In this document: piece after piece, positions 30,936-63,195 of the stretch
How positions within the stretch are numbered: the stretch's first letter is position 1
Layout of the letters: every line of letters starts with the position of its first letter
Source of the DNA: Planctomycetota bacterium
GTDB lineage: Bacteria; Planctomycetota; Phycisphaerae; Sedimentisphaerales; Anaerobacaceae
DNA length: 64,000 nt
Direction: 5' to 3'
Assembly (NCBI GenBank): GCA_030605475.1
Contig: JAUWIG010000011.1
Span: 62,001-126,000, forward strand
Position numbers and translations under genes: made by a program
The notes under the pieces: generated by a model
What the model saw: only the letters and a program-made list of their open reading frames with translations
Database searches by the model: none
What the model was told of the DNA's origin: nothing

Positions 30936-31151
30936 AATTAATCCTCCTAAATAAAAAGCGTTCTTTCTGGGTAATTTTTGCTTTTTATAAAGCTGAAAAG
31001 AACTGAGATAAAAAGAAAAGCATCCTCACCTGCTTCTCGCTTAGACAACAATATCTTATTATCCAGTTTAGCAAGGTGTTAAACTAAAATCAAGGAGATT
31101 ATCGGGCGATGGGGGTGAAATTGGGTTTGATTGGGTTTGTTTTGCATAATA

Positions 31152-31186
31152 GTTCATAGTTCGTAGTTCGTGGTTCGTTGTTATAA
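31152..31186. repeat. Heptamer array in the inverted composite copy, 5 units
   Basis: GTTCATA, GTTCGTA, GTTCGTG, GTTCGTT, GTTATAA. Corresponds in position to the 63014-63048 array. Confidence 0.8.
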
Positions 31187-31252
31187 TTCCTTGTTTTTAC
31201 TAAGCTTACATTAATTTCGGTTTTTCGGAAATTGGGTTTGTTTTGCATTATT

Positions 31253-31292
31253 TGTTAAAATTGGTTGATTGGTTGAATGGGTAAATGTTATA
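31253..31292. repeat. 8-mer array in the inverted composite copy
   Basis: TGTTAAAA, TTGGTTGA, TTGGTTGA, ATGGGTAA, ATGTTATA. Period 8, not 7, matching the period-8 array at 62903-62942. Confidence 0.7.
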
Positions 31293-31348
31293 CCAGCTTT
31301 CTCGGGCACAAGTTGGTAGAAACCTAGCGGCCATTATAAGCGAACTCC

Positions 31349-31376
31349 ATTTGCGATTTACGATTGATGATTTATT
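31349..31376. repeat. Heptamer array, 4 units
   Basis: ATTTGCG, ATTTACG, ATTGATG, ATTTATT, inside the gene-less composite copy. Confidence 0.6.
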
Positions 31377-31399
31377 TCCGCCGGTGGGCGGGTTATCGT

Positions 31400-31434
31400 G
31401 GTTAGTCGTTAGTATTTAGTGAATAGTATTTAGT
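31400..31434. repeat. Heptamer array, 5 units
   Basis: GGTTAGT, CGTTAGT, ATTTAGT, GAATAGT, ATTTAGT. On the minus strand it reads ACTAAAT/ACTAACG, as in the array before the 62308 gene. Confidence 0.75.
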
Positions 31435-31478
31435 TGGAAGAACTATGGCCACCTAAGGGGCGAGCAAAACATACGGGA

Positions 31479-31507
31479 ATTTTAACATATTTTCAAACAA
31501 AAGTCAA
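31479..31507 (-). promoter_or_regulatory. Promoter of the gene-less composite copy
   Basis: On the minus strand: TTGACT, 17-bp spacer, TAAAAT. Boxes are identical to the 62108-62136 promoter and the spacer differs in one base. It points towards the secreted-protein gene, whose start is about 540 nt downstream. Confidence 0.65.
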
Positions 31508-62107: not shown

Positions 62108-62136
62108 TTGACTTTTGTTTGAAAATCTGTTAAAAT
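62108..62136 (+). promoter_or_regulatory. Promoter of the STGPRT-family gene
   Basis: TTGACT (62108-62113), 17-bp spacer, TAAAAT (62131-62136). Same boxes as the minus-strand promoter at 31479-31507. Confidence 0.75.
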
Positions 62137-62166
62137 ACCAGCATGTTTACCGCTAAGCAAACATAA

Positions 62167-62190
62167 CCTGTCCTGAGCCTGTCGAAGGGA
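62167..62190. repeat. CCTGAGC...GTCGAAGG repeat
   Basis: CTGTCCTGAGCCTGTCGAAG followed by GGA, inside the leader of the 62308 gene. Confidence 0.55.
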
Positions 62191-62272
62191 CCCGCCAGTA
62201 GGCGCCAGATATAGCGGAGAACCGCACGAAAAGGCCCACCAGCCCAGTCAAATCCAATTTTTCGTGAATAAA

Positions 62273-62307
62273 ACTAACGACTAAATACTAAAGACTAAGG
62301 ACTAATC
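62273..62307. repeat. Heptamer array abutting the ATG of the STGPRT gene, 5 units
   Basis: ACTAACG, ACTAAAT, ACTAAAG, ACTAAGG, ACTAATC, then ATG. The fourth unit supplies the only ribosome-site-like AAGG, 7 nt before the start. Confidence 0.8.
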
Positions 62308-62916
62308 ATGACTACCGAAGCACAAACTTGCGCCAACCGCCGTAACGCACAAAAATCGACAGGCCCACGCACCAGCGAAGGCAAGGCCGCCATCTCACAA
62401 AACGCCGTCAAACACGGCCTCTTGGCCCGCCACGACGTAATCAGCTCAGAAAGCCAGGCTGACTTCGACCTCTACCGCCGGCAGTTGCTCGCCGAGCTGG
62501 CCCCCGTCAGCCCAATGGAATCTATGCTCGCAGAACGCATTGTTACTCTCTCCTGGCGGCTAAAACGAGTTGGACGAATCCAGAACCAGGCCATCGACGC
62601 CCTGAACGCACGTAATACCTCCAGCCCACTAACAAAACTCACCCAATCCCTGTCTTTCAATATCGCCGGCAAATCGCTAAGCAATGCGGGCGGCTTTAAC
62701 GGCGAACTAACTCTCGGCCGTTTGGCCATAAAGGACTTCTCAAATGCAAGGGTCCTCGACCGACTCTTAATGTATGAACGCCGAATAGAGCACAGTCTCT
62801 ACAGAACGATACTCGAGCTTCAAAGACTCCACCTCATCAGAAAACTGGACACGGGATGTGAAATGCCAATAACCTTGGAGCGAAGAGGAAACCCCTTAGG
62901 GGAATTAACCAATTAA
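62308..62916 (+). CDS. NAQKSTGPRT-family protein (hypothetical)
   Basis: 202 residues. N-terminus CANRRNAQKSTGPRTSEGKA and AISQNAVKHGLLARHDVISS, a pattern that recurs in many hypothetical proteins of planctomycetes and some other phyla, often in several copies per genome. The rest is helical, with SMLAERIVTLSWRLKRVGRI and LDRLLMYERRIEHSLYRTIL. The NAxKHG segment may bind nucleic acid; no catalytic motif. Its stop lies within the 8-mer array. It is the cargo of a dispersed composite repeat, so it may be connected with that repeat's spread. Confidence 0.75.
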   Translation: MTTEAQTCANRRNAQKSTGPRTSEGKAAISQNAVKHGLLARHDVISSESQADFDLYRRQLLAELAPVSPMESMLAERIVTLSWRLKRVGRIQNQAIDALNARNTSSPLTKLTQSLSFNIAGKSLSNAGGFNGELTLGRLAIKDFSNARVLDRLLMYERRIEHSLYRTILELQRLHLIRKLDTGCEMPITLERRGNPLGELTN

Positions 62917-62942
62917 CCATTTAACCACTCAACCAATTATAA
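62903..62942. repeat. 8-mer array at the end of the STGPRT gene
   Basis: AATTAACC, AATTAACC, ATTTAACC, ACTCAACC, AATTATAA. Period 8; it includes the last codons of the gene (ELTN). Confidence 0.75.
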
Positions 62943-63013
62943 CAATTTATGCAAAACAAACCCAATTTGCTGGATGCTCAAATGAACGCAAGTTCTTTTA
63001 TAACAAGGTATTA

Positions 63014-63048
63014 TAACAATGAACAACGAACAATGAACAATGAACGAT
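63014..63048. repeat. Heptamer array, 5 units
   Basis: TAACAAT, GAACAAC, GAACAAT, GAACAAT, GAACGAT, immediately before the second core. Confidence 0.8.
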
Positions 63049-63076
63049 TATGCAAAACAAACCCAATCAAACCCAA

Positions 63077-63195
63077 CCCGTCCTGAGCGCAGTCGAAGGA
63101 CCTGTAGTGAGCTTGCCTGCCCTGAGCTTGCCTGTGGTGAGCTTGCCTGCACTGAGCTTAGTCGAAGTGTCGAACCAGTCGAAGGGGTCGAACCT
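63077..63195. repeat. Cluster of CCTGAGC / GTCGAAGG units
   Basis: CGTCCTGAGCGCAGTCGAAG, then four GAGCTTGCCTG-like units about 18-20 bp apart, then GAGCTTAGTCGAAGTGTCG and CAGTCGAAGGGGTCGAACC. A local tandem expansion of the interspersed palindrome. Confidence 0.65.

Follow-up and report, generated by a model that had tools for sequence, protein, structure and literature searches.

Near the end of the window, by which the whole analyzed stretch of 64,000 nt is meant, a promoter is followed by a gene for a small protein (the STGPRT gene), an array of 8-bp repeats and two identical 18-bp cores with a second short array between them, and a related copy without the gene lies in the opposite orientation elsewhere in the window (Table 1). 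The cores, the promoter boxes, the 8-mer and 7-mer arrays and the ORF are all located where an earlier reading, made from the sequence alone, had placed them, and the promoter–core distances of 841 and 259 nt in the gene-bearing and gene-less copies, respectively, reproduce the difference of 582 nt that it had reported. The 18-mer, a strict form of the 13-bp core AAACRAASCCAAT, is matched four times in the window, against 0.12 matches expected from shuffled sequences.

Table 1. Features of the two element copies (positions in the 64,000-nt window)
Feature	Position	Strand	Description
Type A 5' module	62108..62136	+	Sigma-70-like promoter: TTGACT (62108-62113), 17-nt spacer, TAAAAT (62131-62136); 22 copies in the genome
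Heptamer array	62271..62307	+	ACTAACG ACTAAAT ACTAAAG ACTAAGG ACTAATC, in the STGPRT 5' UTR
STGPRT gene	62308..62916	+	202 aa, all-helical; no Pfam, NCBIfam or PADLOC family
8-mer array	62903..62939	+	AATTAACC
Core 1	62949..62966	+	ATGCAAAACAAACCCAAT; 13-bp core at 62954-62966
Inter-core 7-mer array	63015..63045	+	101-bp spacing class
Core 2 and half-core	63050..63077	+	ATGCAAAACAAACCCAAT (core 2, 63050-63067) and CAAACCCAAC (half-core); 3' end of the conserved unit
Gene-less copy	31130..31507	-	-35 box at 31502-31507; RBS and ATG of the gene persist as a relic at 31332-31348
Core 1 of gene-less copy	31231..31248	-	
Core 2 of gene-less copy	31130..31147	-	

The two copies in the window belong to a multicopy composite family with gene-bearing and gene-less forms, as the sequence-only reading had supposed. 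The genome (2.4 Mb in 58 contigs) contains 28 exact 18-mers, 60 when up to three mismatches are allowed (four for the reversed control), and 59 exact copies of AAACRAASCCAAT, against two for the reversed-pattern control. A genome-wide pair search returned many pairs, rather than these two copies only or cores standing singly; the cores mostly form direct pairs that fall into two spacing classes, 89-92 bp and 101 bp. The exact 18-mer and the 101-bp spacing are therefore too narrow as the defining traits for which they had been taken, since the 13-bp core and the shorter class also occur. The twin-core module as a whole can be aligned across 26 units of this genome, and the stretch preceding core 2 is of two kinds, namely a 7-mer array in units of the 101-bp class, or a tract without repeats, found mostly in the 89-92-bp class. 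The position of the array is conserved between copies, and its repeat unit changes. Between positions 63080 and 63200 of the window, CTGAGCTTG and CAGTCGAAGG form a separate family of short repeats, with tandem and interspersed copies, which is often found 3' of the element in this genome.

The promoter proved to be only one of a set of 5' modules that replace one another, and it does not mark a constant end of the element. Its module, TTTTGTTTGAAAATNTGTTAAAAT, occurs 22 times in the genome, and in 19 of these cases a core follows on the same strand 0.2-0.8 kb downstream. Besides this type A, a type B beginning with TCAATCAAA...GCG and a type C, TTGACRYATAAC...TATAAT, were distinguished, and gene-bearing copies are headed by module types that are also found on gene-less copies. 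Paralogues with 92-96% identical genes may carry different modules (A in the window copy and B in the second copy of its genome, L002; B in L081 and C in L082), and paralogues within one genome share the gene and the cores but not the flanks. In a complete copy, a 5' promoter/leader module, for which at least three exchangeable types exist, is followed by the STGPRT gene, an array of short period and a proposed recognition module at the 3' end, which has at least two AAACRAASCCAAT cores. Heptamer-like arrays of other sequences are also seen upstream of many of the planctomycete gene copies inspected, in a constant position just before the RBS and start codon.

The gene itself is far rarer than the cores, with only two copies in the genome (the window copy and one at C30 with 93% protein identity). 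Three gene-less copies, including that at 31130-31507, retain GGAG...ATGGC, which corresponds to the RBS and start of the STGPRT gene. These relics agree with the derivation of gene-less copies by internal deletion proposed in the sequence-only reading, and support the view that most copies probably lost the gene in this way while keeping their ends.

The AlphaFold model of the STGPRT protein (pLDDT 82, pTM 0.66) is all-helical, with two N-terminal helices, a loop between them that carries the conserved, basic STGPRT motif, and a subsequent long helical hairpin. Between dispersed paralogues, dN/dS is 0.12-0.29, which indicates purifying selection. The conserved residues include T18, G19, P20, H36, E71 and Y156. 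The protein matched no family in Pfam, NCBIfam or PADLOC, the last of which also excludes a match to the defence proteins it covers; profile searches against solved structures in the PDB gave nothing significant, and Foldseek and VIA-align returned only generic coiled-coil or helical-hairpin matches that indicate no function. No Pfam, NCBIfam or PDB sequence match marks the protein as an HUH (Y1) transposase, although a missing fold match does not by itself exclude this. A viral origin received no support, as no relative was found in viral contigs and PHROG matches were weak (E 0.04 or worse). Comparison of the gene neighborhoods revealed no common neighbor, no conserved gene set and, in agreement with the sequence-only reading, no linked transposase; the commonest neighboring "ORF" was discarded as a mechanical reading of the repeat itself. 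In searches of the open-access literature, no paper mentioned the STGPRT motif or this planctomycete repeat.

The gene and the core are linked well beyond the window genome. A scan of species genomes yielded 80 loci with relatives of the STGPRT protein, 67 of which could be tested for cores. At 59 of the 67, an exact core lies 400-1400 nt past the start codon, in the 3' part of the gene or shortly after it, and at the other eight the exact core is absent. This 3' zone holds 117 cores (1.76 per kb), compared with five (0.012 per kb) in the remainder of these loci, an approximately 150-fold difference, and the sense strand carries 107 of the 117. The linkage is seen at 54/57 loci in Planctomycetota, consistent with the wide occurrence in planctomycetes claimed earlier, and at 2/4 in Alphaproteobacteria, 1/3 in Acidobacteriota and 2/2 in an Acidimicrobiia-labelled MAG. 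In these counts, loci that come from the same genome are not independent of each other, and the taxonomic labels of MAGs may be erroneous. Cores dispersed at a distance from the gene are present in these genomes as well.

Presence of the gene and abundance of the core coincide across genomes as well. Among 41 relatives, at least 10 cores were found in 15/15 gene-positive and 4/26 gene-negative genomes (Fisher p 6e-8, phylogeny ignored), and among 248 genomes of the class, at least five cores were found in 17/31 gene-positive and 2/217 gene-negative genomes (p 5e-16, phylogeny likewise ignored). The gene is patchily distributed (31 of the 248), and 14 of the 31 gene-positive genomes have fewer than five cores of the AAACRAASCCAAT form. 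Core-rich genomes in which no intact gene was detected are the relatives G008, G010, G011 (with a gene fragment) and G019, and G241 in the class sample. G092, from a distant planctomycete family, has 11 gene copies, 10 of which carry two to four variant cores, GCCRAACGAACCC, on the opposite strand; 508 such sites are present in this genome, against none for the control, and in the 12 stretches inspected they form clusters of uniform orientation. Because a matching core variant stands beside these divergent genes, the core and the protein family appear to have diversified together. At three loci of G092 (L348, L350 and L351), the variant-core clusters alternate with a repeat of approximately 130 bp that holds the inverted repeat CGGTGCCACGGGTCGGCGGTAC...CCGGCGACGCCGTGGCACC. 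As separate observations, the gene in the window and that of L061 (G022), which belongs to a different genus, differ by a dS of only 0.33 with a dN/dS of 0.49, for which horizontal transfer may be responsible, and a 2.9-kb stretch is 99.97% identical between L201 (G012) and L202 (G008), whose genomes are placed in different genera, probably through a binning error in one of the two.

The ends of the element were compared in 43 twin-core units of G195, which belongs to the same genus as G014 and to another genus than the window genome. The units end sharply at CCAATTTTA on the 3' side, with unique sequence beyond, and most of the longer gene-less copies (mainly 360-530 bp) start at TCAATCAAA. 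The precise ends expected by the sequence-only reading, TCAATCAAA...CCAATTTTA, were thus resolved in this relative and only there. Positions and orientations are lineage-specific: at some loci, a unit present in one of the genomes G195 and G014 is absent at the same junction in the other. In four such locus pairs the 3' end coincides with the stop codon of a convergent gene or lies no more than approximately three codons from it, and the element-terminal TTA reads as TAA on the strand of that gene. Two of these four intergenic regions contain, in the other genome, a unit that is turned the opposite way and faces the other gene. An apparent restriction of synteny to the 3' flanks was an artefact of short windows, as 5' synteny resumes 1-3 kb away in most pairs tested. 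There are no terminal inverted repeats, TCAATCAAA and CCAATTTTA not being inverted repeats of each other, and no target duplications were apparent by eye in the G195 flanks, where the compared genomes are approximately 75-80% identical and offer no close empty sites. At such divergence, homologous recombination between copies is inseparable from insertion, so that movement of the copies, which the divergent genomes suggest, could in part be explained by recombination. In relatives, the upstream TPR gene does not adjoin the CBS homologues found, and a search for neighbors of the CBS gene therefore gave no empty site that could be used for the window copy. At five G195 loci (L264, L276, L278, L280 and L293), a hairpin such as AATTTTATCCGCC...GGCGGATAAAATT lies beyond the 3' end and is possibly a further module or a terminator.

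A possible mechanism was considered on this basis. We favor, with a probability of roughly 60%, a modular family of dispersed DNA elements with a cognate protein. The STGPRT protein would be expressed from the element promoter and may bind the core, in DNA or in the transcript, through its basic N-terminal STGPRT motif. It could then engage copies that carry the core in a process of copying or recombination, by which gene-bearing and gene-less copies alike would spread to intergenic sites, and recombination between copies would shuffle the modules. The role of mobility factor given to the protein by the sequence-only reading draws on linkage and co-occurrence, and the protein might perform the movement, recruit another enzyme or act as a host regulator with mobile sites. 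That STGPRT is itself the mobility enzyme, and hence represents a new class of small all-helical DNA-mobilizing proteins without a known nuclease or recombinase fold in several phyla, is a tentative idea that we consider rather doubtful. Several observations count against the favored model as a whole, namely that no catalytic family or fold was recognized, that in some core-rich genomes no intact gene was detected, that the exact core is missing from eight of the 67 gene loci, that 14 of the 31 gene-positive genomes of the class have fewer than five cores, and that neither inverted repeats nor target duplications were seen.

The same observations lend themselves to a reading in which the repeats are passive and are moved by an unlinked transposase, for example of the HUH/IS200 type, with STGPRT as cargo or regulator and the core as the terminal recognition sequence of the foreign enzyme. 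Ends without inverted repeats or visible target duplication would be in keeping with single-strand transposition. That no nuclease-like fold was found in the protein and that some core-rich genomes lack the gene also speak for this reading. Mere cargo is, however, hard to square with the linkage of gene and core across phyla and with the matching core variant in a distant family; moreover, neither a palindrome nor a conserved fold was found, and no neighboring gene is common to the loci. This reading is considered improbable. A comparably low likelihood is assigned to host-useful sites, with STGPRT as a nucleoid protein or a transcription or RNA-binding regulator, its own 3' cores as autoregulatory sites and spread through the usual processes of duplication and recombination. 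Purifying selection on the gene, strong promoters that point toward the cores, the placement of units in gene-flanking intergenic DNA against the stop codons of convergent genes and an all-helical protein with a basic N-terminus would all suit such a role, but the patchy distribution in the class, the frequent gene-less deletion derivatives with sharp ends, the lineage-specific positions and orientations and the lack of a conserved neighboring gene set would not.

Strong promoter modules aimed at the cores could also produce structured non-coding RNAs that act as sponges or regulators. RNAalifold gave only -1.4 kcal/mol and no shared structure for 23 full-length copies, no Rfam family matches the element, and the 5' modules are freely swapped, so that this explanation seems very unlikely. 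Conservation of the core as a peptide (NKPN, KQSQ or KTNPI) in the protein tail or in small ORFs, as might be supposed from its location inside the STGPRT reading frame in many lineages, is ruled out for practical purposes by the reading-frame test: gene-overlapping cores occupy the three frames about equally (13/10/10), and cores also lie outside the ORF and, in some lineages, antisense to it. The use of all three frames indicates selection on nucleic acid, DNA or RNA, rather than on a peptide.

The favored model of a dispersed element with its own protein most resembles REP/REPIN sequences and their RAYT (TnpA-REP) proteins, in which a short repeat likewise has tens to hundreds of copies between genes and also flanks a gene that is present once or in few copies, repeat variants have co-diversified, several phyla are involved and some genomes keep repeats without the gene (PMC2817692, PMC3733652, PMC3116915). 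Here, too, a short repeat is dispersed in high copy number and linked to a gene flanked by it. RAYTs belong to the HUH tyrosine transposases, and REPs are palindromic with a GTAG or CGTC tag (PMC2817692, PMC3733652, PMC3116915), whereas the STGPRT family is all-helical without a recognized HUH domain, and AAACRAASCCAAT is not self-complementary, occurs predominantly in direct repeats at 3' ends of copies that carry promoter modules, and has no shared fold (23 copies). In the absence of the palindrome and of an HUH signature, the element is regarded as REP/RAYT-like in its working and is not classed as a member. In retaining the ends of a gene-bearing copy along with relics of its start codon, the gene-less copies are like MITEs and internal-deletion derivatives of IS elements, but terminal inverted repeats, visible target duplication and a recognized transposase are all missing. 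BIMEs are similar as short intergenic mosaics of combinatorial modules and arrays, and the pneumococcal BOX is also a short mosaic intergenic element with combinatorial modules; in contrast to both, the repeat described here has a specific protein gene linked to it in several phyla. The TAACTGA heptamers of Beggiatoaceae, direct repeats upstream of start codons with a horizontal distribution (PMC4679880), resemble the heptamer arrays just 5' of start codons, but the heptamer unit of the element varies from copy to copy and its arrays belong to a larger element.

These results suggest that, in several bacterial groups, a protein and a DNA repeat that spreads itself form a partnership not described before. 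If this is true, it would be a second, unrelated lineage on the very short list of bacterial partnerships between a protein and a dispersed repeat. It would also account for many short hypothetical planctomycete ORFs whose frames run through the core and end in QNKPN/KQTQ/KTNPI tails, and would give an uncharacterized protein family a concrete candidate for its DNA or RNA ligand.
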